A stretch of DNA of 64,000 nucleotides from an uncultured Bacteroidia bacterium (lineage in GTDB: Bacteria > Bacteroidota > Bacteroidia > Bacteroidales > Prolixibacteraceae): the NCBI GenBank assembly GCA_903904515.1, contig CAIVCR010000068.1, forward strand, positions 53,814 to 117,813, in the 5' to 3' direction. The translations under genes and the position numbers were made by a program. Shown in pieces: positions 1,066 through 12,677 of this stretch (the stretch's first letter is position 1; each line of letters begins with the position of its first letter). The notes beneath the pieces were generated by a model, which was not told the origin of the DNA, did no database searches, and saw only the letters and a list, made by a program, of their open reading frames with translations.

Positions 1066-1407
1066 TTATAGTGGCTGTTGGTCCAGTGGAGCCTCTCCCA
1101 GCCAAGATTTCAGTAATCTAACCTGGTAAATCAAGAATCGCACATACATGATCTCAGACATATCGTTTTCTGTTTGCTCTGGTAAACGCACCCTTCCACC
1201 TGTATATTTGATAAATCGGTTAATGGTTCCTTCCCTATCTTCATTGGCATCATCGATTTCATTCAACCTGTTCAGAACTTCATCAACAGTCATTCCACTA
1301 ACATCAAAATATTTCCTAACACCTATTATTAAATCTTCGTACTCAGAATTACCTAATCTTGAATAAACATTATCGAATAATTTATCTGTGAAGGCGTATG
1401 TTCCCAT
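1066..1407 (-). CDS. hypothetical protein (113 aa)
   Basis: ORF track; plausible composition, no recognised motif. Confidence 0.5.
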   Translation of the reverse strand: MGTYAFTDKLFDNVYSRLGNSEYEDLIIGVRKYFDVSGMTVDEVLNRLNEIDDANEDREGTINRFIKYTGGRVRLPEQTENDMSEIMYVRFLIYQVRLLKSWLGEAPLDQQPL

Positions 1408-2138
1408 CGTTTAAATTTTAAGATTAATAATTAATGACTTAATAGAATATGAAATATTTAGTCTATATGAACATTTCAATCATCCTCAACTAAAATGGAG
1501 ATGAATCAACTTTGGCAAGGGAGAATCAATATAAAACGGGACAAGATACTCAATGGGACAAAGGTGTCCAATTTTCAAAGATCATCTTAGGTAATAAAAT
1601 TAAGTTCAATCGCTAAATCATTGTTTTATGTTATTTACTCCTAGGTGAAAATAAACAATGAGATACCCAATTCTCAATAATTACTATTTTTTCAATCCAG
1701 AATGCAAAGACATCTTTATGTTTTGAATATCAACATGTTATTTACTTATTGGATTTTCATTGTCCCATAGTTGGCCATCACCAAGAAGGCCAAATTCAAC
1801 CAGTTAAAGAGCGAACCCATCTATTAACATGCTGACAATCTATTTATTGATGAATCTCTGGGTATTGAGTTATCCAGGGATTTCTTGTTATGACCCATTG
1901 GCACATAGGCGACCATCTTAATATTCAAGTATTGGCACATTTATACATACTAAATATCTTGCAAATTATTAGCCTCATTGCTACCCAGTATAATATACAA
2001 ATGGGCAATTGGTGATCTTCAAAATCGACAATTTCATCAATTTTGCCTACTGCATATTTTCACTCTTAGTGACAATTATACCCCAATATTTACCATTATC
2101 TTCCGGAGTTCTAATTTCTTAAGTTGATGCCAACGAAA

Positions 2139-2165
2139 AAGGGTGTAGTACAATGCTACACCCTT
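2139..2165 (-). terminator. Rho-independent-like hairpin, oriented for the minus strand
   Basis: AAGGGTGTAG-tacaatg-CTACACCCTT, perfect 10-bp stem; minus strand continues TTTTTCG. Confidence 0.5.
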
Positions 2166-2236
2166 AATCCTAATCTAATAGAGATTAATTGGCTGAATTT
2201 TTAATTTATTGTATAATCACCAAGTTGGACCTTTGG

Positions 2237-2398
2237 TCACAAACAACATATTTCTATAAAATCCTGGATGGAGGCATTTTGAAATGCCACACTTTTTTCG
2301 ATACTAATCATTAGTATAGGATCCCATATTAAATCATCCTCATAAAACTCCTCGATAATGGAATGTACTTTGTGATTGAATGGCCTTTTTAAGCCCAT
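2237..2398 (-). CDS. possible small ORF or gene remnant (53 aa)
   Basis: Own translation MGLKRPFNHKVHSIIEEFYEDDLIWDPILMISIEKSVAFQNASIQDFIEICCL*; protein-like composition, below the ORF track length cut-off. Confidence 0.25.
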   Translation of the reverse strand: MGLKRPFNHKVHSIIEEFYEDDLIWDPILMISIEKSVAFQNASIQDFIEICCL

Positions 2399-2869
2399 AT
2401 TGGCAAGGTAGCAGTCCGATCTGAGCGAACTGAAAACACTATTCCGATCACCCGGCTTGAGGAGGGGTGAGCATTATAGGTCAATGAACTTGTAAAATAT
2501 TTTTTTGAAAGCCCCATTTGGTATTTAATTAATTTTCGCTTAAGTCATAATTCTTTATCAACAGTAAATATATAAAGATTGACGTAAATTTTACTTCCCA
2601 AAAATCAATTTTTATTTTACATCAATCCAAAAGCCACGCGGGTTATACAATTGAATATAATCACATTAGCACATCCCTCCGATGAACTTTGCAGCAAATA
2701 GTTTGTTGAATCTCTGTATCCTTACACTACGACTTAAATCCAACACGTTGGGAATCCTGTGTCGGATACCATGATCTATTGATTGGTTAGAAATGATTTA
2801 TGATCTGGCTAAAAGCTGAATTATTAATCTGACTGTAAATGGTTTAACTTAAATTAACACCTCTTTAAA

Positions 2870-4300
2870 ATGAAAAAACACACCCCCCGCTTTGACTGGA
2901 ACGGAATCGACCTGGAAGCGCTGCGCCTGGTGATGGACAAGCCCGCAGATAGTGCTATCGAGGCGATCTTTGAATCAAAATCGATGGAGCATCTGCGTAC
3001 CTTGCTGGTGGAGATGGCAGCGAACGACAGTTTGGTTTCCAATGAATTACCAAAACCCATGCACGATTTTGTACAGGAAGAATTGAGCATTCGCTTCTCT
3101 CCGGAGGACATAGAACTTTTTAAAGAGGCTCATGAAGTTTGGAAAGAGAAAGGTACTAAATTCATTCTTATTTTGCTATTCAGAGCCTTACCTTATACAT
3201 ACATGGCCGAAAAGCCGGCTAATGTACTTCGAATGACAAAGCTGCTTATTACTCAACCAGAACGAAGGGTCTTTGAAACTGCTCAGTTTGTGTTCGATGT
3301 TATGGACGAAAATTGGTGGGAGCCCGATAAAAGGGGAATTCTTACTGCATTAAAGGTCAGAATAATGCACGCAGCAATGCGAAAAGTGATTCTTGACAAT
3401 ACCTATGGCGAGGAGTGGAATGAGGCTTGGGGAAAACCCATCAGCCAGGAGGACCTGGTAGCTACAAACCAGGTGTTTTCGCTTGAATTCTTTAAGGGAA
3501 TGGAATTGCTGGGTGACCCGCTGACCCCTCAGGAACAGAAAGCATGGTTTCACACCTGGAAAACCATAGGCAGCATTATGGGTGTTCAGGACGATCTGCT
3601 CAGCAAAGATGTAGCCGAAGCATGGTCATTACAACATGCTGTTTATAACCATCTGTTTAGTGACAAAACAGTTTCCGGGATACCTTTAACAAAGGCCCTA
3701 GTCGAAACCCTGCACCATTTTCACCTGCCATTAAAGTTAATCCTGCTGGTAATGAAACGGATGCTTGCAGATGATCAATTCCCCGATTGTTTCGAACGTA
3801 TGCTTGGCCCATCCTATGAAAAAGATTTTCCTGAAGTTTTTTTCAAACCTAATACGGACGATGAAAAAATCGCTAATGATAAACTATTAAATACCCACTT
3901 AGTTGTCAATTTGAAGATATATCATCAAACCATACAGGATAAAAAGGGTGATTTTATTAAGAAAGCTCCAAATCAGGGAATTGTCGAACAACTGATGGCT
4001 CTGGTATTGAAAATCCTGTCCCTTCTTTTAAAACAAAAAACTATCCTGGAAATTCACCATGATAATCTTGATAAGGTTCTATACCCCAAAGGGGAAGATA
4101 AAACAATAGAAGAAATAGGAGAAGAGGTGATCATGGAATCGATGTCGGCGTTAAGCGGAATTATAATTGGCATTCTCTCCGTTCATTTCAGAGAAGGTAA
4201 ACAATCGGGTTTTAGAATACCTAAAACACTAAGGGCAAACTGGGCACGCACAGGAAAAAGGGGGAAATCATGGATCTGGAATATCGGAAATCGATTGTAA
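2870..4300 (+). CDS. MpaB/latex-clearing-protein-like oxygenase (DUF2236 family)
   Basis: Motif order RALPYTYM...RRVFETAQFVFDVM...ALKVRIMHAAMR...EDLVATNQVFSLEFFKGMELLG...W...G consistent with the MpaB/Lcp haem oxygenase family. Confidence 0.75.
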   Translation: MKKHTPRFDWNGIDLEALRLVMDKPADSAIEAIFESKSMEHLRTLLVEMAANDSLVSNELPKPMHDFVQEELSIRFSPEDIELFKEAHEVWKEKGTKFILILLFRALPYTYMAEKPANVLRMTKLLITQPERRVFETAQFVFDVMDENWWEPDKRGILTALKVRIMHAAMRKVILDNTYGEEWNEAWGKPISQEDLVATNQVFSLEFFKGMELLGDPLTPQEQKAWFHTWKTIGSIMGVQDDLLSKDVAEAWSLQHAVYNHLFSDKTVSGIPLTKALVETLHHFHLPLKLILLVMKRMLADDQFPDCFERMLGPSYEKDFPEVFFKPNTDDEKIANDKLLNTHLVVNLKIYHQTIQDKKGDFIKKAPNQGIVEQLMALVLKILSLLLKQKTILEIHHDNLDKVLYPKGEDKTIEEIGEEVIMESMSALSGIIIGILSVHFREGKQSGFRIPKTLRANWARTGKRGKSWIWNIGNRL

Positions 4301-5121
4301 GTTATTACGACAATACCCGCCTTGATTATCGGGTACTCTGGTTTGGTAAAAAGAACAGAGCCGTACACTTTGGCTATTACGACCATGAAGTAAGGTCTCA
4401 CTCATCGGCACTTTTAAATCTGAATAAGGTAATGGCTTTAAAAGGGGGAGTCAAAGACGGCGACATCATTCTTGACGCCGGATGTGGCCAGGGAGGAAGT
4501 TCTCTGTGGCTGGCTGAAAAATATGATGTTCAGGTGACAGGCATTACGTTGGTGCCACACCAGGTCAAGAAGGGGCAAAAAACGGCCCTCAAAAGTCAAT
4601 TGAACCATCGGGTGAAATTTTTTGAGCAGGATTATGCAAATACCAGCTTTAAAGACGAATCATTTTCGTTGATCTGGGCCTGTGAAAGTATGTGTCATGC
4701 AAAGGAGAAATTAAATTTCTACAAAGAGGCATTCAGATTGCTTAAGCCAGGGGGCCGATTGATTTGTGCCGATTATTTCAGAACGGAACGAATACTGCCT
4801 CCGGAAGGAGAAAAGCTTTTGCACGAATGGCTGGATGGCTGGTCAATAAATGATCTGGACACCTTTTCGGAACACAAGAGTAATGCTGAACAATGTGGTT
4901 TTATTCAATTTGAAATTGAAGATATCACCAAATTCACCAGGCCTTCACTCCGACACTTACACTCTATGGCAAGCAAATTATGGAAATTTGGCAGATTTCT
5001 GAAAGTTATCGGGCTTCGGAATAAGGTAAATCACGGGAATCACTACAGTTCCATCAAACAATTCGAGGCTTTGGAAAATAAGTTGTGGTATTATGGATTA
5101 TTATCTTTAAAAAAAGGTTGA
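4270..5121 (+). CDS. SAM-dependent methyltransferase (class I, tocopherol/cyclopropane-synthase-like)
   Basis: ILDAGCGQGGSSLWLAE motif I, later LLKPGGRLICADYF; overlaps the upstream gene by 31 bp. Confidence 0.88.
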   Translation: MDLEYRKSIVSYYDNTRLDYRVLWFGKKNRAVHFGYYDHEVRSHSSALLNLNKVMALKGGVKDGDIILDAGCGQGGSSLWLAEKYDVQVTGITLVPHQVKKGQKTALKSQLNHRVKFFEQDYANTSFKDESFSLIWACESMCHAKEKLNFYKEAFRLLKPGGRLICADYFRTERILPPEGEKLLHEWLDGWSINDLDTFSEHKSNAEQCGFIQFEIEDITKFTRPSLRHLHSMASKLWKFGRFLKVIGLRNKVNHGNHYSSIKQFEALENKLWYYGLLSLKKG

Positions 5122-5123
5122 AA

Positions 5124-8100
5124 ATGAGTTCATCTGAAGGACAAATTATCCACTCTGGCTACACAGTAGTCAGATCGCTCTTTAAGAATGAGCGAAATGA
5201 GATTATCATGGCCCACCGCATCTCCGACAAAAAGAAAGTGGTTTTGAAACAATCTGTTTTGTTAAATGAAAATTTTTTAAAAATTTCAAAATTAGGTCAT
5301 GAATACGATATCCTTAAAGATATGGATCATGCAGGAATTCCGAAAGTTTTTGAGATTTTATTTGATGGCAAGACGGTTGCCATGGTTCAGGAGTACATCG
5401 ATGGAACAAACTTAAGAAAACTGATTTTCGAAAAGCAGATCAGTCGGACCGAGGCGCTGAACATCGCAATTCAACTTGCTGACATACTACACTATATCCA
5501 TCAAAATGGGGTAATCCACAAAGACATAAACTCCGGCAATCTCATGATTACAAAGGATGGCATCTTAAAATTACTCGATTTTGGCATTTCATCCAATCTT
5601 TACATCGAAACCAATGAAATTTTAAATGTCGATCAGATTGAAGGCACACTGACCTATATTTCACCTGAACAAACCGGCAGGACTGCCTATTCGGTAACTC
5701 ACAGCTGTGATTTTTATTCTTTTGGAGTGTTGCTCTACGAACTCCTGGCGGGTAAACCACCGTTCGATTCTATTGATCCACTTGAAGTCATCCATTTTCA
5801 TCTGTCCAGAAATCCGATTCCTTTGACCTCCATAATACCCGATTTACCCAAAGGATTGGACATGGTGGTTGCCAAGCTGATGGAAAAAAATCCGGATGAA
5901 AGGTATCATAGCGCCGCCGGATTAAAATCTGATCTTATGACCATCAGGAGGCACTACATTTCAAAAGAGCAATTACATAACTTCAAGGCCGGCTCAAAAG
6001 ATCAAATCGGGCACTACAAACAAAGCCAGAAATTATATGGCCGGGAAGATGAATTAAATGAATTGATAGGCTACTACAAAAATCTGCAACAACTAAAGTC
6101 GATGCTTATTTTGGTGGCAGGCTATTCCGGTGTTGGGAAATCGGAGCTGATCAGACATATTAAATTCCCGATTATTCAGGATAAGGGGACTTTTATCAGT
6201 GGAAAGTTCGATCAGTTTAAAAAAGATATCCCTTACTATGCCTTTATTGAAGCTATTCAGGAATTTATTAAAAATCTGCTGGCCGAATCTGCGGATAAAA
6301 TTAACCATTGGAGGGAGCGCATTACGGTAGCTTTAGGTGATAATGCCGGGTTAATCACCGAAGTAATCCCTCAGCTTTCAAGGATAATTGAAAAACAACC
6401 CTTAGTTCCTAAATTACAGCCGGCTGAGCAGGAAGCCCGGTTTCACATGGTGCTTCTCGATTTTATCTATGCTTTCAGCACTATTGAAAACCCGCTGGTC
6501 ATCTTTTTGGACGACCTTCAATGGGCTGACTTGTCTTCCCTGAACCTGGTCAAACGGATATTGGAAAATCCACGGCAGGAGAACATTCTGATTCTTGGGG
6601 CCTACCGCGATAATGAAGTTGAAAAAGGTCACCCGTTACTAATTACCTTAAAACAGATTAATGAATCAAATTGTCTGGTAAAAGTCATTCATATAATGCC
6701 CTTAAGCGAGGAGACCACCTGCCGGATAACCGCAGACTCATTCGGAATGGATCAGGTTCAGGCCAATGAATTAGGAAGTCATGTTTTTGGAAAAACCAAA
6801 GGCAATCCCTTCTTCATCCATAGCTTTCTAAAATCACTCTATGATAAAAAGCTGGTAAAAAAAGATTCGTCTGAAAAATGGATCTGGAAACAGCAAGAAA
6901 TTGATGAATTAGGCTATACCGACAACGTTATCGATCTGATGACAGAAGGACTGATTACCTTACCAAAACATACCCAGGAGATTCTGAAATATGCTGCAGT
7001 TCTTGGCAACACATTTAATCTCGCTGATCTGGCTGATATCACTGAAACATCACAAACAAAGGTTTACACCGACCTGAAGCCAGCCATTATTGGAGGCTAC
7101 ATCAACTCAAACGACAATAAATACAGGGCATTGGCATTAAGTTCATTCAGGAAGGATAGTCATCCTGATCATCAGTTTTCAGTTGAAACTGCCCGGTTTA
7201 CCTTTAGTCACGACAAAGTGCAGCAGTCGGCTTACAATTCAATAGCTTCCAACTCACTTGCCGCATTACATCTTCGGATCGGAAGATTACTCTTACAGAA
7301 CAGAGCCGAATCCTTTATCCAGGAGGGGATATTTGAATTATTAAATCATTTTGCAATAAGTTACCAGCTGATTGAAAATAAGAACGAAAAAGAGAGAATC
7401 GCTCAGCTATGTTTGATTGCAGGGAGAAAAGCCAAAGATTCGACCTCCTATAATTTCGGCGTCCATTTCTTAAAAGTGGCAAAATATTTACTCGGAAATA
7501 ACAGTTGGGAGAAGAACTACTCGCTGACTTATGATGTATTGTCGGAACTGGGAGAATGTGAATATTTAAATGACAATCAAATAGATGCTGAAATATATTT
7601 CAATGAAATAGTGGGTAATGCCCGCACAAAATTTGAAAAATTAAAAGTCTATTATATTCATTCATCCCTGTATCTGAAAATTGGAAATACCAGTGAATCA
7701 CTCCGCATTGGACTTGAAGCGGTAAAACTCTACGACATTCGCTTTCCTGAAAACAAAACAGCAATTAAGGTTGCAACTTTGTTTAAGATGGCAAAATACC
7801 TGTTTTCCTTCTCCACTAAATACAGAAACCCCGAACCTCTGTTCCACCTGCGGGACTGCAAGGATGAAGAAATTATTGCACTCAATAAATTTCTGATCGA
7901 CGTGGCTACAAGTGCCTACCAGCAGGATCAGAATCTGATGATGCTCGTGATCTTCAAGATAGTTAAATTATATCTCGAAAAAGGATTTACTGATGCCAGT
8001 GGCTGGGGGTTCTCCGGATTTTCGGTGGTTGTTCTCTCTGCCCTGAAGATGCAAAAAAGAGGGTTTAACCTTTGGGAAATCACCATGAAGCTTCACCAGA

Positions 8101-10490
8101 AAACACACTCCCCACTTATCAGATGGAGACTGAGCTACACGGTATTAGCTTTTTATAATCACTGGAAAAGTCCTATTCGTGAAGGCTATAACGACAATCT
8201 GGAGACCATTAAAGCCTGCGTATTGAATGGTGATCATATCTTCACGGGATATTCTGTTGCCTTATACTTAAGATCAAGGATTGTAGCAGGTGACAATCTG
8301 AAAGAAATTATAGAAACCTCTGAAGAGCATTTATCACTGATCAGGAATAGGAAAGGGGGACTGGATTTTTTTCAATGCTTCCAACAGCTTGCGAAAGCAT
8401 TGAACGGTCAGACTAACGGTAGCAGCTGGGATGATGCAACTTTTAGCAGCTTCGAAACTTTGGAACGGCTGAACAAGGAAGGGAATATGACAAAGCTTGC
8501 TTTTTATCATGTAGCAGAAAGCTCCCATCTCTACCTCTTCGGCCAACCCAGAAAGGCTCTTGAAACCAGTCAGATTGTCCTTAAATATTCGGCTAATTTC
8601 CTGGGCGACATGCTCGAGGTATTTCATGCCGTTTTTACGTCACTTTCCATCTCTTCCTGTTTTGAAGAGATGAATTCCATCGAGAAGAAAAAATATCTGA
8701 AAGTATTTAAAAAGCATATTCATGACCTGAAACTTTGGGCAAAAGGTTGTCCTGAGAATTATGGACCGCACTACGCCCTGTTACAAGCTGAATTTTTCGC
8801 GCTAAATAACAGGTTTGAAAGAGCAATGCTGTTCTATGAACAAGCGATTAAATTAGCTTCAATGAACCGAATAACATACATTGAAGCTATTGCAAATGAA
8901 AGAATTGCCAGTATTTGTGCGAAAAGACAGCTGACCAAACAACGGCAAATTTATCTCACAGATGCCTGGGAAGCGTACCAAAAATGGGGTGCATACGGCA
9001 AATGCAGGCAACTTGAAGAGTTGCATCCGGATTTCTTGAAATCACAACTAAATATTGAAATAAAAGAGAAATCCGGGATCTACGCAGGCACTTTTGCTTC
9101 AAGCACCACAGCTCTCGACCTGGCGAGTGTTTTAAAAGCTTCACAAAGTATCGCGATGGAGGTGAAATATGATGAATTACTGAATAAGCTGATGCATATT
9201 ACTATTGAAAATGCAGGAGCGGAAAGAGGATGTTTGCTGCTTTCAATTGGTAATCAGCTATGTATTGAAGCAATAGGTATAACCGGCACAAATGAGATTG
9301 AAATTCTCCCTTCTGTTCCTTTGAGCGAGATGGATATCGTTCCAAATTCAATCGTGAATTATTGCTGGCGGTCGGAAGAAAATTTAGTAGTTAATGATGC
9401 ACTCAACGAAGAGCGATTTAATTTCGATCCTTATATTCAGAAATTTAAAATATTATCGGTTCTCTGCCTGCCAATTAAGGCTCAGGGAAAATTAACCGGA
9501 TTACTTTACCTTGAAAACAGACTTTTGAAAGGCGTTTTTAACAAAAACAGAATTGATCTGCTGCAAATGCTGTCCGGACAGATAGGAATTTCTATTGAAA
9601 ACGCCTTGCTTTATGAGAACCTCGAAGAAAAAGTAGCAGAGCGGACTAAAGAAATTGAAAAAGCGTATTCCGAGCTTAAAGATGCGCAGGCACTCCTGAT
9701 CCAATCCGAAAAAATGGCTTCTTTAGGCGAACTTACCGCAGGCATCGCCCACGAGATTCAGAACCCTTTGAACTTTGTGAATAATTTTTCGGAAATAAAT
9801 GGAGAATTGATTGATGAGTTGATTCAGGAAATTGAAAGTGGCAATCTGGATGAAGTAAAAGCCCTTGCCAATGATATTGCTGACAACGAACAAAAGATCT
9901 CACAACATGGGAAACGTGCGGAGGCGATTGTGAAAGGGATGCTCCAGCACAGTCGCAGCAGTACCGGAGTCAAAGAACCATGCAATATCAATGCACTGGC
10001 TGACGAATATTTACGGCTGGCTTATCATGGATTAAAGGCAAAAGATAATTCATTCAATGCTTCGATGATAACCGATTTTGATCCGACAATCGGAGCTATT
10101 AATATCATTCCTCAGGATATAGGCCGCGTAATTCTGAATTTGATTTCCAATGCGTTTTATGCCATAAATGTAAAGACGCAGCACGCGGTAGAGACGCAGC
10201 ACGCTGTAGAGACGCAGCGCGCTACGTCTCTACAGCCATACGAACCCACGGTCTGGGTTTCTACAAAAAAATCAGGAAATCATATCGAAATCCATGTTAA
10301 AGATAACGGTCCCGGCATACCGGCCCACATCCTTGAAAAGATCTTTCACCCCTTCTTTACCACCAAACCAGCCGGTGAAGGGACGGGGTTAGGATTATCG
10401 ATGAGTTATGATATTGTAAAGGCGCATGGCGGAGAAATTAAGGTGGATACAAAAGAGGGAGAGTTTACAGAATTCATTTTAGTGCTGTAA
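5124..10490 (+). CDS. Ser/Thr protein kinase - AAA ATPase - GAF - histidine kinase hybrid
   Basis: Kinase HKDINSGNLMI/LLDFGISS; Walker A GYSGVGKS and Walker B LVIFLDDLQWAD; GAF-like region; HisKA LGELTAGIAHEIQNPLNFVNNF; HATPase VKDNGPGIP/GTGLGLSMSYDIVKAHGG. Track ORF starts at 5085; the likely start MSSSEG is at 5124. Confidence 0.93.
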   Translation: MSSSEGQIIHSGYTVVRSLFKNERNEIIMAHRISDKKKVVLKQSVLLNENFLKISKLGHEYDILKDMDHAGIPKVFEILFDGKTVAMVQEYIDGTNLRKLIFEKQISRTEALNIAIQLADILHYIHQNGVIHKDINSGNLMITKDGILKLLDFGISSNLYIETNEILNVDQIEGTLTYISPEQTGRTAYSVTHSCDFYSFGVLLYELLAGKPPFDSIDPLEVIHFHLSRNPIPLTSIIPDLPKGLDMVVAKLMEKNPDERYHSAAGLKSDLMTIRRHYISKEQLHNFKAGSKDQIGHYKQSQKLYGREDELNELIGYYKNLQQLKSMLILVAGYSGVGKSELIRHIKFPIIQDKGTFISGKFDQFKKDIPYYAFIEAIQEFIKNLLAESADKINHWRERITVALGDNAGLITEVIPQLSRIIEKQPLVPKLQPAEQEARFHMVLLDFIYAFSTIENPLVIFLDDLQWADLSSLNLVKRILENPRQENILILGAYRDNEVEKGHPLLITLKQINESNCLVKVIHIMPLSEETTCRITADSFGMDQVQANELGSHVFGKTKGNPFFIHSFLKSLYDKKLVKKDSSEKWIWKQQEIDELGYTDNVIDLMTEGLITLPKHTQEILKYAAVLGNTFNLADLADITETSQTKVYTDLKPAIIGGYINSNDNKYRALALSSFRKDSHPDHQFSVETARFTFSHDKVQQSAYNSIASNSLAALHLRIGRLLLQNRAESFIQEGIFELLNHFAISYQLIENKNEKERIAQLCLIAGRKAKDSTSYNFGVHFLKVAKYLLGNNSWEKNYSLTYDVLSELGECEYLNDNQIDAEIYFNEIVGNARTKFEKLKVYYIHSSLYLKIGNTSESLRIGLEAVKLYDIRFPENKTAIKVATLFKMAKYLFSFSTKYRNPEPLFHLRDCKDEEIIALNKFLIDVATSAYQQDQNLMMLVIFKIVKLYLEKGFTDASGWGFSGFSVVVLSALKMQKRGFNLWEITMKLHQKTHSPLIRWRLSYTVLAFYNHWKSPIREGYNDNLETIKACVLNGDHIFTGYSVALYLRSRIVAGDNLKEIIETSEEHLSLIRNRKGGLDFFQCFQQLAKALNGQTNGSSWDDATFSSFETLERLNKEGNMTKLAFYHVAESSHLYLFGQPRKALETSQIVLKYSANFLGDMLEVFHAVFTSLSISSCFEEMNSIEKKKYLKVFKKHIHDLKLWAKGCPENYGPHYALLQAEFFALNNRFERAMLFYEQAIKLASMNRITYIEAIANERIASICAKRQLTKQRQIYLTDAWEAYQKWGAYGKCRQLEELHPDFLKSQLNIEIKEKSGIYAGTFASSTTALDLASVLKASQSIAMEVKYDELLNKLMHITIENAGAERGCLLLSIGNQLCIEAIGITGTNEIEILPSVPLSEMDIVPNSIVNYCWRSEENLVVNDALNEERFNFDPYIQKFKILSVLCLPIKAQGKLTGLLYLENRLLKGVFNKNRIDLLQMLSGQIGISIENALLYENLEEKVAERTKEIEKAYSELKDAQALLIQSEKMASLGELTAGIAHEIQNPLNFVNNFSEINGELIDELIQEIESGNLDEVKALANDIADNEQKISQHGKRAEAIVKGMLQHSRSSTGVKEPCNINALADEYLRLAYHGLKAKDNSFNASMITDFDPTIGAINIIPQDIGRVILNLISNAFYAINVKTQHAVETQHAVETQRATSLQPYEPTVWVSTKKSGNHIEIHVKDNGPGIPAHILEKIFHPFFTTKPAGEGTGLGLSMSYDIVKAHGGEIKVDTKEGEFTEFILVL
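10171..10233. repeat. GTAGAGACGCAGCACGCT-type repeat cluster ending in its inverted arm, inside the hybrid kinase CDS
   Basis: Units (t)aaagacgcagcacgcg, gtagagacgcagcacgct, gtagagacgcagcgcgct followed by acgtctctac. Confidence 0.85.
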
Positions 10491-10558
10491 CGTCGGTTTA
10501 AACAAATGAACATTTTTATTTCTTAAACATTATTTATTAAAAACCAAAATTAATCATC

Positions 10559-11002
10559 ATGGCAACAGTATCAATTTATTTCAACTTCATGGGAAATGCT
10601 GAAGAAGCATTTGAATTCTACAAAAAGGCTTTTAAATCAGAATATTCTGCTCCTATCATGCGGATGAAAGACATTCCGGCACAACCAGGTATGCCGGTAC
10701 TTTCAGAAGCCGAACAAAACAAAGTAATGCATGTTGCATTACCTATCCTCGGCGGCACAGAGATTATGGCAACAGACGTGCTTGAAAGCATGGGGCACAA
10801 ACTGATTGAAGGGAATAACATATCAATCAGTTTAAATCCTGATACTAAAGAAGAAGCTGACCGTTTATACAACGAACTATCTCAATCCGGAACTGAATGT
10901 GCTCCACCCCATGATGAATTCTGGGGTTACTGGGGAACCTGCAGGGACCAGTTTGGAATTCGCTGGATGTTTAACATGGCAAGTCAGCCACTTAATCAAT
11001 AA
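10559..11002 (+). CDS. VOC family protein (PhnB/3-demethylubiquinone-9 3-methyltransferase-like)
   Basis: MATVSIYFNFMGNAEEAFEFYKKAF...HDEFWGYWGTCRDQFGIRWMFN. Confidence 0.9.
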   Translation: MATVSIYFNFMGNAEEAFEFYKKAFKSEYSAPIMRMKDIPAQPGMPVLSEAEQNKVMHVALPILGGTEIMATDVLESMGHKLIEGNNISISLNPDTKEEADRLYNELSQSGTECAPPHDEFWGYWGTCRDQFGIRWMFNMASQPLNQ

Positions 11003-11013
11003 GATAAAGTTGT

Positions 11014-11463
11014 ATGGAAACCAATAGCGTATCATTACACCGGGTTATTAATGCCTCTCCCGAAAAAATTTACCGTGCATTCACCGATCCAATTGCGATG
11101 GCATCATGGATTCCACCTTATGGATTTTTATGTGTTGTTCATAGTATGGATGTACGACAAGGGGGAAGCTACCGGATGTCATTTATCAATTTCTCCACCG
11201 GAAACGGAAATTCATTTGGTGGCACCTACCTGGAATTGAGGCCCAATGAATTTATCAAATACTCCGACAAATTTGAAGACCCGAATTTACCGGGTGAGAT
11301 GGTTACCTCTGTTTTGCTCGAAAAAGTTTTATGCGGCACAGAACTTAAAATTACCCAGGATGGGATTCCTTCGGTTATACCTACCGAGATGTGCTATTTG
11401 GGGTGGCAGGATTCGCTGGAAAAACTCAAAAAACTCGTTGAGCCTGAAATTCCGGATGCGTGA
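11014..11463 (+). CDS. SRPBCC / AHSA1-like domain protein
   Basis: HRVINASPEKIYRAFTDPIAMASWIPPYGF...GWQDSLEKLKKLVEPE. Confidence 0.88.
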   Translation: METNSVSLHRVINASPEKIYRAFTDPIAMASWIPPYGFLCVVHSMDVRQGGSYRMSFINFSTGNGNSFGGTYLELRPNEFIKYSDKFEDPNLPGEMVTSVLLEKVLCGTELKITQDGIPSVIPTEMCYLGWQDSLEKLKKLVEPEIPDA

Positions 11464-11629
11464 TTATTGAAACATATCTGCTCATGTATACGCAAACCCA
11501 ATCAATGACAAAAACTTTCCTGCCTGGTATTTTTGGCTAAGTATTGAGAATAATTGGATTTCGAATTTTAGAGACCGAGAGTTTGCTGTTTTGTAATCCC
11601 TTCGTTGCAAAATAAGTCTAGATGTTTCC

Positions 11630-11694
11630 ACCACAGATTACTCAGATTGACACAGATTAAAACCCCATTTTTCTAAATCTGTGTAATCTGTGGT
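11630..11694. repeat. ACCACAGATTAC... palindromic intergenic repeat
   Basis: accacagattactcagattgacacagatt ... aaatctgtgtaatctgtggt. Confidence 0.8.
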
Positions 11695-11823
11695 AAAATA
11701 TTTTGTACCCAATTCTATTTACCTATTAATTTAAATGTGTAATAAATTATACATAAGACTTCGTGTGATCCATACGACCCAGCATGAAGTCTTATTTGTT
11801 TGTGGTTCGTTGTTTTTCTCCAG

Positions 11824-12261
11824 TTAAAATTGTCCGTTATATTTTGGGTCAAAATCTACCATCCATTCGATGCCGTATTTGTCTCTAAACATTCCAAAGT
11901 AAGAGCCCCAGGGGCTGTCACACATTGGCACCTCAATTTGTCCGCCTACCGAAAGTCCATTAAATAAGTGGTCTGCTTCTTCTTTGCTTTCAGCACTTAC
12001 AGAAATTTTACTTCTGTTTTCGTTTTCATTGGTCCGTCCCATACTTTCCGGAACGTCATTTGCCATTAAAATAGTTTTCCCAATAGGCAAAGCAATATGC
12101 ATTATTTTATTCGCTTCATGCTCTGCTACCGTGAATTCCTCACTTTCGAGGTCTTTGAAACGCCTAATTTTTGCGAACTCTCCGCCAAAAACTGATTTGT
12201 AAAATGTAAATGCTTCTTCGGCATTTCCGTTGAAGTTAATGTGAGGATTGATTTGAGCCAT
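11824..12261 (-). CDS. VOC family protein (PhnB-like)
   Basis: MAQINPHINFNGNAEEAFTFYKSVFGGEF...SPWGSYFGMFRDKYGIEWMVDFD; paralogue of 10559..11002. Confidence 0.9.
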   Translation of the reverse strand: MAQINPHINFNGNAEEAFTFYKSVFGGEFAKIRRFKDLESEEFTVAEHEANKIMHIALPIGKTILMANDVPESMGRTNENENRSKISVSAESKEEADHLFNGLSVGGQIEVPMCDSPWGSYFGMFRDKYGIEWMVDFDPKYNGQF

Positions 12262-12283
12262 TTTATTATTTTTTTAGGTTATC

Positions 12284-12318
12284 AAATTGACGATTTACGA
12301 TTGACGATTTACGATTTA
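12284..12318. repeat. Left arm of inverted repeat framing the four-helix-bundle gene
   Basis: aaattgacgatttacgattgacgatttacgattta; reverse complement of the 12679-12724 arm. Confidence 0.85.
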
Positions 12319-12677
12319 TGGATTTGCTTTTGCCTCATTGTTTTGATTGAAGCGACGACGATGGCAGTAATTTCATTGACCTCCTTTTTAACGTTAACAA
12401 TTCTTGCTGAATCAATTAACCCGCTTTCTTCCAAAACGTCTAACCAATATTGTGTTTCGTCTGCTTCTTCCTCCACAATTTTAAGTTTATTGTTAAAATC
12501 TGGATCTGATTTTGCCCGACAAGCAGCCCGGTAATTAGCACCAACAGATGTGGAACTTCTGACTATCTGTTTCGCAATAATCCAGGCTGATGGCTTGTTC
12601 GGCAACTCATCAATAAGCTTAATTATTTCTATGCCTATCAGCTTAGTCCTTTTCTTAATTTGTTCCTGCACAACCAT
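12309..12677 (-). CDS. four helix bundle protein (23S rRNA-IVS/TIGR02436-like)
   Basis: KLIDELPNKPSAWIIAKQIVRSSTSVGANYRAACRAKSDPDFNNKLKIVEEEADETQYWLDVLEESGLI; family hallmark S-S-x-S-x-G-A-N-Y and E-A-D-E-T-x-Y-W. Confidence 0.92.
   Translation of the reverse strand: MVVQEQIKKRTKLIGIEIIKLIDELPNKPSAWIIAKQIVRSSTSVGANYRAACRAKSDPDFNNKLKIVEEEADETQYWLDVLEESGLIDSARIVNVKKEVNEITAIVVASIKTMRQKQIHKS

Follow-up and report, generated by a model that had tools for sequence, protein, structure and literature searches.

In the quorum sensing of Ralstonia, the methyltransferase PhcB makes a lipid-derived methyl ester that is perceived by the sensor kinase PhcS (PMC8578825), and the ODS/OdsR system of Pseudomonas uses oxygenated fatty acids as cell-to-cell signals (PMC6377657). 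The fungal kinases CHK1/Mak2/Mak3, of which Candida Chk1 is an example, carry Ser/Thr kinase, AAA_16, GAF and histidine kinase domains in this order (PMC9069115), and Candida Chk1 has been implicated in the response to the isoprenoid farnesol (PMC8274445). Here we analyse a stretch of 64,000 nucleotides, referred to as the window, from an uncultured Bacteroidia bacterium of the Prolixibacteraceae (assembly GCA_903904515.1, contig CAIVCR010000068.1), in which three adjacent genes encode an MpaB/Lcp-family haem oxygenase-like protein (gene 1), a class I S-adenosylmethionine (SAM)-dependent methyltransferase (gene 2) and a giant receptor kinase with the domain order of the fungal proteins (gene 3; Table 1). 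The architecture of gene 3 is also like that of the cyanobacterial trifunctional Ser/Thr kinase/ATPase/sensor histidine kinases of the HstK type. These HstK-type kinases have been surveyed (PMC2176072), and no description linking them to lipid oxygenases was found in the open-access literature. As with PhcBSRQ, a gene for a predicted small-molecule enzyme lies here in tight and conserved linkage with that of a sensor kinase, but the PhcB-PhcS pair comes without an MpaB/Lcp oxygenase. To our knowledge, PhcS also lacks the kinase-STAND-GAF receptor architecture. The Pseudomonas ODS relies on other enzymes and on a LysR-type receptor, unlike the window system, whereas Candida Chk1 is a eukaryotic protein with a receiver (REC) domain and no co-encoded oxygenase. 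All the protein families involved are known, and the arrangement would be a variant of synthase-receptor signalling; a description of the three-gene arrangement itself was not found in the open-access literature. In our view, the three genes probably represent a modular oxygenase-receptor system, in which the enzymes would generate, or modify, an oxidised lipid or isoprenoid that serves the receptor as its ligand.

The order and strand of genes 1, 2 and 3 are kept in all 10 orthologous loci, which span more than one family, with identities of 55-79% for gene 1, 69-82% for gene 2 and 58-80% for gene 3. The first-pass annotation of the sequence had made its proposal depend on such co-localisation in other genomes. 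Orthologues of gene 1 occur at six loci of a named genome collection and in eight of 101 related genomes (counting that of the window), several of the loci being coincident, and each belongs to such a triple. Among these triples are that of a Prolixibacteraceae metagenome-assembled genome (MAG; L006) and that of a MAG filed as Chitinophaga (L004), where the kinase runs off the contig; one more, complete, comes from outside the window's class (G208/L050; 61/72/61% identity). An orthologue of the kinase with at least 57% identity is present in 10 genomes of the 101 relatives, and both enzyme genes lie directly upstream in eight of them, the remaining two copies (G010 and G017) stopping at contig ends. 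The spacing between genes 2 and 3 is always about -4 to +6 bp at the orthologous loci; in the window, the stop codon of gene 2 occupies positions 5119-5121 and the ATG of gene 3 begins 2 bp later. The frame of gene 3 has a mechanical start at a GTG at position 5085, but the start conserved among orthologues is 5124. Genes 1 and 2 overlap by 31 bp in the window, and overlaps of 28-31 bp are restricted to it and its two nearest relatives (L002 and L003) because gene 1 is C-terminally extended there; the remaining orthologous loci show gaps of a few bases to about 25. The gene coordinates, the 31-bp overlap and the start at 5124 had all been given correctly by the first-pass annotation, as judged by the open reading frame (ORF) list, the sequence and the starts of the orthologues, and its domain calls for the three genes coincide with those of Pfam. 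A sigma-type -33/-7 consensus had zero matches between window positions 300 and 13000, a result that is uninformative on the real promoter. At L002, L003 and L005, one to several extra histidine kinases flank the triple, with kinase domains 57-69% identical to that of gene 3, and the window carries none of these beside its triple.

Gene 1 matches PF09995 (MPAB_Lcp_cat) with 62.4 bits (8.8e-17; Pfam cut-off 23), and the rubber oxygenase LcpK30 (5o1m/5o1l) is its sole phmmer match in the PDB (5e-12); none of the three genes has an equivalog in NCBIfam. In the phmmer alignment, residues R133, T137, R164, H167 and R171 of gene 1 align with R164, T168, R195, H198 and R202 of Lcp, and these five positions are invariant in every aligned cassette MpaB, down to 20-30% identity. 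The haem of LcpK30 has His198 as its proximal ligand, a residue with 100% conservation among 495 Lcps, and Arg164 and Thr168 belong to the active site (PMC5522427); Arg195 and Arg202 are structural residues. The AlphaFold model of gene 1 (predicted local distance difference test, pLDDT, 74) adopts the globin-like Lcp fold, and Foldseek places 5o1l/5o1m (LcpK30) first (E 1.5e-6, template modelling score 0.45-0.61), followed by the t-anethole oxygenase 8s1j. Family, active-site residues and modelled fold support gene 1 as a putative haem C=C oxygenase. No N-terminal hydrophobic segment of the secretion type is present in gene 1, and the protein is therefore probably cytosolic. A secreted rubber-cleaving Lcp was ruled out, as the secretion signal is lacking and the position of Lys167 is taken by Glu136. 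LcpK30, MpaB and trans-anethole oxygenase have their fold and active-site residues in common with gene 1, but they are catabolic or biosynthetic enzymes, whereas gene 1 is about 20% identical, has no secretion signal and lies in a signalling locus.

In the case of gene 2, Pfam gives Methyltransf_11 and Methyltransf_25, the motif DAGCGQGG is present, and the NCBIfam matches fall below cut-off. The match in the PDB is 3bus (3e-23), and Foldseek returns 6uv6, 3bus, 5gm1, 4f85 and 7fbo, so that sequence and fold resemble natural-product and isoprenoid methyltransferases such as RebM, AtmM, MitM, TleD and the geranyl-diphosphate C-methyltransferases. Gene 2 is thus predicted to be a small-molecule methyltransferase, C-, O- and N-methylation being indistinguishable by sequence and fold. 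Its distant homologues outside cassettes are solitary (G137, G116, G111, G250, G101 and G153), and therefore the methyltransferase family by itself is no marker of the system.

Gene 3 contains Pkinase (28-268), AAA_16 (303-490), GAF (1350-1491) and HATPase_c (1664-1787) domains; HisKA scores below its cut-off, although the H-box AHEIQNPL is present. Its catalytic motifs are intact (K42, HKD 132-134, DFG 152-154 and the Walker A GYSGVGKS 333-340), and both domain order and motifs are those of the HstK/CHK1 architecture, except that the protein ends after HATPase_c, at residue 1787, with no C-terminal REC domain. A second copy of its Ser/Thr kinase-ATPase-TPR part was not found in the window's genome.

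The same kind of arrangement recurs, with homologues only 20-30% identical, in other Bacteroidota classes, as found in surveys for distant MpaBs within this phylum (a phylum scan of 396 genomes and a class scan of 245 genomes; Table 1), many of these MpaBs being part of cassettes. The receptor module, 24-34% identical between the window and the distant cassettes (alignments A5/A6), is common to all of them whatever the enzyme or the output, and in the distant ones the histidine kinase is exchanged for a SpoIIE phosphatase or a class III cyclase. The receptors of L053 and L054 match the Pfam family TPR_CHK1. In related cassettes the methyltransferase is replaced by a Pyr4-like protein (PF25129), a type known from bacterial pathways such as those of xiamycin and zigralone; the main text of a survey of these bacterial cyclases from 2026 (PMC13307353) makes no mention of MpaB or of kinases. 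The cassette proteins show an invariant WE motif and a conserved C-terminal Asp, and no match to PF25129 exists in the window genome (G000). Pyr4 itself requires two acidic residues. Pyr4-like genes at L118-L120 and L122 adjoin neither MpaB nor receptors, four loci that end at contig edges (L111, L112, L114 and L115) are uninformative, and the cassette is absent at three checked loci with plasmid-borne MpaB or methyltransferase relatives (Streptomyces, Nostoc and Persicobacter).

Oxygenases unrelated to MpaB were found beside the same receptor family when 297 genomes were scanned with a profile of the kinase-ATPase-TPR-GAF module (A6) built from MpaB cassettes only. Scoring was limited to the two top candidates of each genome, and the receptor counts are therefore lower bounds: at least 21 proteins in 16 genomes, five of them with MpaB. 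Six of the 21 lie beside a lipoxygenase with a full-length match to the solved lipoxygenase 5ek8 (2e-100), and five of these six loci also encode a protein like the coral allene oxide synthase (AOS; 1u5u, 5e-63), a second lipoxygenase-like protein standing in its place in the sixth. These neighbours could possibly constitute a bacterial oxylipin pathway. An RPE65/carotenoid-oxygenase-type gene is directly upstream of the receptor in 3/21 (L178, L181 and L183), a flavin amine-oxidase-like enzyme is adjacent in two more (L170 and L171, of which L171 also has an RPE65 gene at a distance of two genes), and an FAD/ALO oxidase in one (L177). These associations with lipoxygenases and RPE65-type genes are unbiased by the query, because the profile held no such cassettes. 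Within the 16 receptor genomes, every lipoxygenase gene (6/6) is located in a receptor locus, a placement with a probability of about 1e-17 under random independent placement, which is a rough bound that ignores shared descent; among the five RPE65-type genes, three are receptor-adjacent and one is two genes away.

The type of enzyme follows the receptor tree, on which it changes 12 times as compared to 24.0 in shuffles (none of 200 as low), and the type of output varies within enzyme clades, the MpaB-Pyr4 clade having SpoIIE, cyclase and histidine kinase outputs. The MpaB of L053 is sister to that of the window (88% support in the Shimodaira-Hasegawa-like approximate likelihood-ratio test, SH-aLRT, on a long branch), but its receptor does not group with the window clade; the MpaB and methyltransferase pair may accordingly have moved together as a unit.

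Table 1. Features of the three-gene locus in the window and of related receptor and MpaB loci in other Bacteroidota genomes (AOS, allene oxide synthase; STK, Ser/Thr kinase).
Locus	Coordinates	Strand	Feature	Length and basis
Window	2870..4300	+	Gene 1: MpaB/Lcp-family (PF09995) haem oxygenase-like protein	476 aa; ORF list, Pfam, phmmer, Foldseek
Window	4270..5121	+	Gene 2: class I SAM-dependent methyltransferase	283 aa; Pfam, NCBIfam, PDB, Foldseek
Window	5124..10490	+	Gene 3: giant receptor kinase, Ser/Thr kinase - AAA_16 (STAND-type) ATPase - TPR-like - GAF - histidine kinase	1,788 aa; Pfam
Window	5124..9599	+	Gene 3 receptor module (kinase-ATPase-TPR-GAF)	Alignments, phylum scan
Window	9600..10490	+	Gene 3 output module (HisKA-HATPase histidine kinase)	Pfam, comparison with distant cassettes
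L168, L169, L172, L173, L175	e.g. L173:4107-7418		Lipoxygenase and coral-type AOS beside giant receptor kinase	
L053			Methyltransferase - MpaB - STK-AAA-GAF-cyclase	
L054, L109, L110			MpaB - Pyr4-like transmembrane terpene cyclase (PF25129) - STK-AAA-GAF with SpoIIE	
L057, L146			MpaB - Pyr4-like - STK-AAA-GAF with cyclase output	
L113			MpaB - Pyr4-like - STK-AAA-GAF with histidine kinase output	
L051, L108			MpaB - Pyr4-like - SpoIIE proteins	
L116, L117	L116:5588-11584, L117:7786-13713		Class III cyclase-STAND protein, MpaB and fatty acid desaturase	MpaB of ~505 aa
L144	L144:9004-14793		Class III cyclase-STAND protein, MpaB and methyltransferase	MpaB of ~505 aa

The three genes would be transcribed and translated as one unit, through which a small lipophilic molecule is both made and perceived. 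This would start with the MpaB/Lcp haem oxygenase, which, as its family and active-site residues suggest, may insert O2 at, and probably cleave, a C=C bond in an isoprenoid or a polyene like it. The oxygenase product would then be tailored by the methyltransferase and would bind the cytosolic receptor module of gene 3, most likely via its GAF or TPR part. In the last step, an unlinked response regulator would receive the signal from the C-terminal histidine kinase, whose activity the N-terminal kinase and the ATPase may gate. In general terms, such a system would combine one or more lipid-oxygenation enzymes with one conserved receptor and an exchangeable output. The enzymes may produce, or remove, the oxidised lipid or isoprenoid bound by the receptor. 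The sequences directly display the linkage, order and conservation of the genes, their intact catalytic residues and the exchange of enzymes and outputs around one receptor module; from these we infer the chemistry, the kind of ligand and the direction of signalling. PhcB-PhcS, the oxylipin signals of Pseudomonas and Candida Chk1 serve as precedents. The strongest argument for a ligand of this kind is that non-homologous but chemically parallel oxygenases (haem MpaB, non-haem lipoxygenase and RPE65-type) share one receptor family. Of the two options offered by the first-pass annotation, the coupling of a dedicated sensor to two enzymes that modify lipids or isoprenoids gains support from a linkage that is strict in orthologues and recurs at 20-30% identity, and an enzyme pair that makes the sensor's signal gains it from the presence of other lipid and polyene oxygenases beside the same receptor family.

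Several observations weigh against this proposal. PhcBSRQ has a linked response regulator, but a Pfam scan of the eight window proteins at 1066-12677 revealed none with a receiver domain. The distal ligand Lys167 of Lcp is replaced by Glu136 in gene 1, which is tempered by a conservation of this lysine of only 59% among Lcps (PMC5522427), and even Chk1 may not bind farnesol directly (PMC8274445). Some receptors (L180, L182, L205, L207 and L208) have no recognisable oxygenase neighbour; of the 21 in the scan, two have nothing recognisable beside them, and two more have directly upstream a 238-aa protein without a Pfam match (L174:11424-12140 and L176:6433-7149). Moreover, many MpaBs are solitary (about 340-415 aa; 23 phylum-scan loci plus L123 on a Persicobacter plasmid) and fall mainly into two clades of their own, so the association with the receptor belongs to a subfamily and not to all MpaBs. 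Finally, the correlation between MpaB and receptor distances (r 0.94 over 16 loci; 0.78 and 0.74 within subsets) speaks for the proposal, but such a correlation and linked trees are also expected from the vertical descent of a linked unit and are no proof of ligand, contact or signalling.

An unlikely alternative is that information flows in the opposite direction, with the kinase sensing something else (e.g. membrane lipid state or redox) and regulating the activity or expression of the enzymes, so that the locus would be a regulated tailoring pathway rather than a signal-making one. Tight co-encoding fits a regulator and its target equally well, and the Ser/Thr kinase of the window, being catalytically intact, could phosphorylate the enzymes. 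However, the swapping of outputs (histidine kinase, SpoIIE or nucleotide cyclase) around constant enzymes would be needless for the regulation of two enzymes, lipid oxygenases without relation to each other pair with one and the same receptor, and the receptor kinase of L113 has lost its HRD and DFG motifs, so that phosphorylation of the enzymes cannot be general.

The Lcp-like haem globin could instead act as a sensor of O2, CO, NO or redox and, like a globin-coupled sensor working in trans, transmit its state to the kinase through contact, but this seems improbable. The predicted cytosolic location of gene 1, without secretion signal, and the coupled evolution of MpaB and receptor would suit such a role; yet the same receptor pairs with a non-haem lipoxygenase, an RPE65-type enzyme and a catalase-like AOS, all of them catalysts, the distal active-site Arg and Thr are invariant, and the constant second enzyme (methyltransferase or terpene-cyclase-like) would be left unexplained. 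Both this explanation and the reversed flow account less well for the exchange of enzymes than an oxygenase-receptor system does.

There is very little to recommend an anti-phage or stress defence, in which the STAND ATPase and the kinase would sense invasion and the enzymes would modify membranes or lipids as the effector. STAND-type AAA_16 and Ser/Thr kinase domains are known in defence systems, one locus (L052) has a caspase-GDSL-MpaB fusion, and PADLOC gives kinase (PD-T4-6, mad6) and methyltransferase matches, but these span only the generic folds, with no system-specific gene set; no defence genes were seen around the window triple, and the outputs are classical signalling domains. A coincidental or merely inherited neighbourhood of functionally unlinked genes is barely credible, for although linked genes may persist by descent within one family, this linkage is kept down to 55-60% identity with near-zero spacing, in independent assemblies with differing receptor clades and enzyme types, and all six lipoxygenase genes of the receptor genomes sit in receptor loci.

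If the oxygenase-receptor system is real, it would be a modular class of bacterial signalling in which a polyene-lipid-oxidising enzyme is hard-wired to its receptor. The ligand of giant Ser/Thr kinase-STAND-GAF-histidine kinases would become testable, a question shared with fungal CHK1 and farnesol, and functions would be offered for orphan Bacteroidota MpaB/Lcp proteins, lipoxygenases, coral-type AOS and Pyr4-like proteins. More tentatively, and with somewhat less than an even chance of being right, the Bacteroidota may possess a widespread and undescribed class of intra- or intercellular lipid signals, where, from clade to clade, one receptor family would have different oxygenase modules (MpaB/Lcp with a methyltransferase or with a terpene cyclase, lipoxygenase with AOS, or a carotenoid-cleavage oxygenase) and exchangeable outputs. 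Such a class would be comparable, in bacteria, to signalling by oxylipins, jasmonates and apocarotenoids.

Other features were observed around these loci. The cyclase-STAND proteins of L116, L117 and L144 represent a second receptor type paired with MpaB, and at L172 a receiver-histidine kinase protein follows the receptor. A Pyr4-like gene directly precedes that of a 424-aa class III cyclase-domain protein, without MpaB, at L121:9321-11241. At L052:6087-11165, a 1,692-aa protein in which caspase (C14), GDSL lipase, MpaB/Lcp and DUF5995 domains are fused precedes a 7TMR-DISM histidine kinase. Just downstream of the window triple, two glyoxalase/3-dmu-9-type paralogues (10559-11002 and 11824-12261; 47% identical) flank an AHSA1-family gene, neighbours that are not kept beside the triple in other genomes, and a four-helix protein of the 23S rRNA-intervening-sequence type (PF05635) is encoded at 12309-12677.
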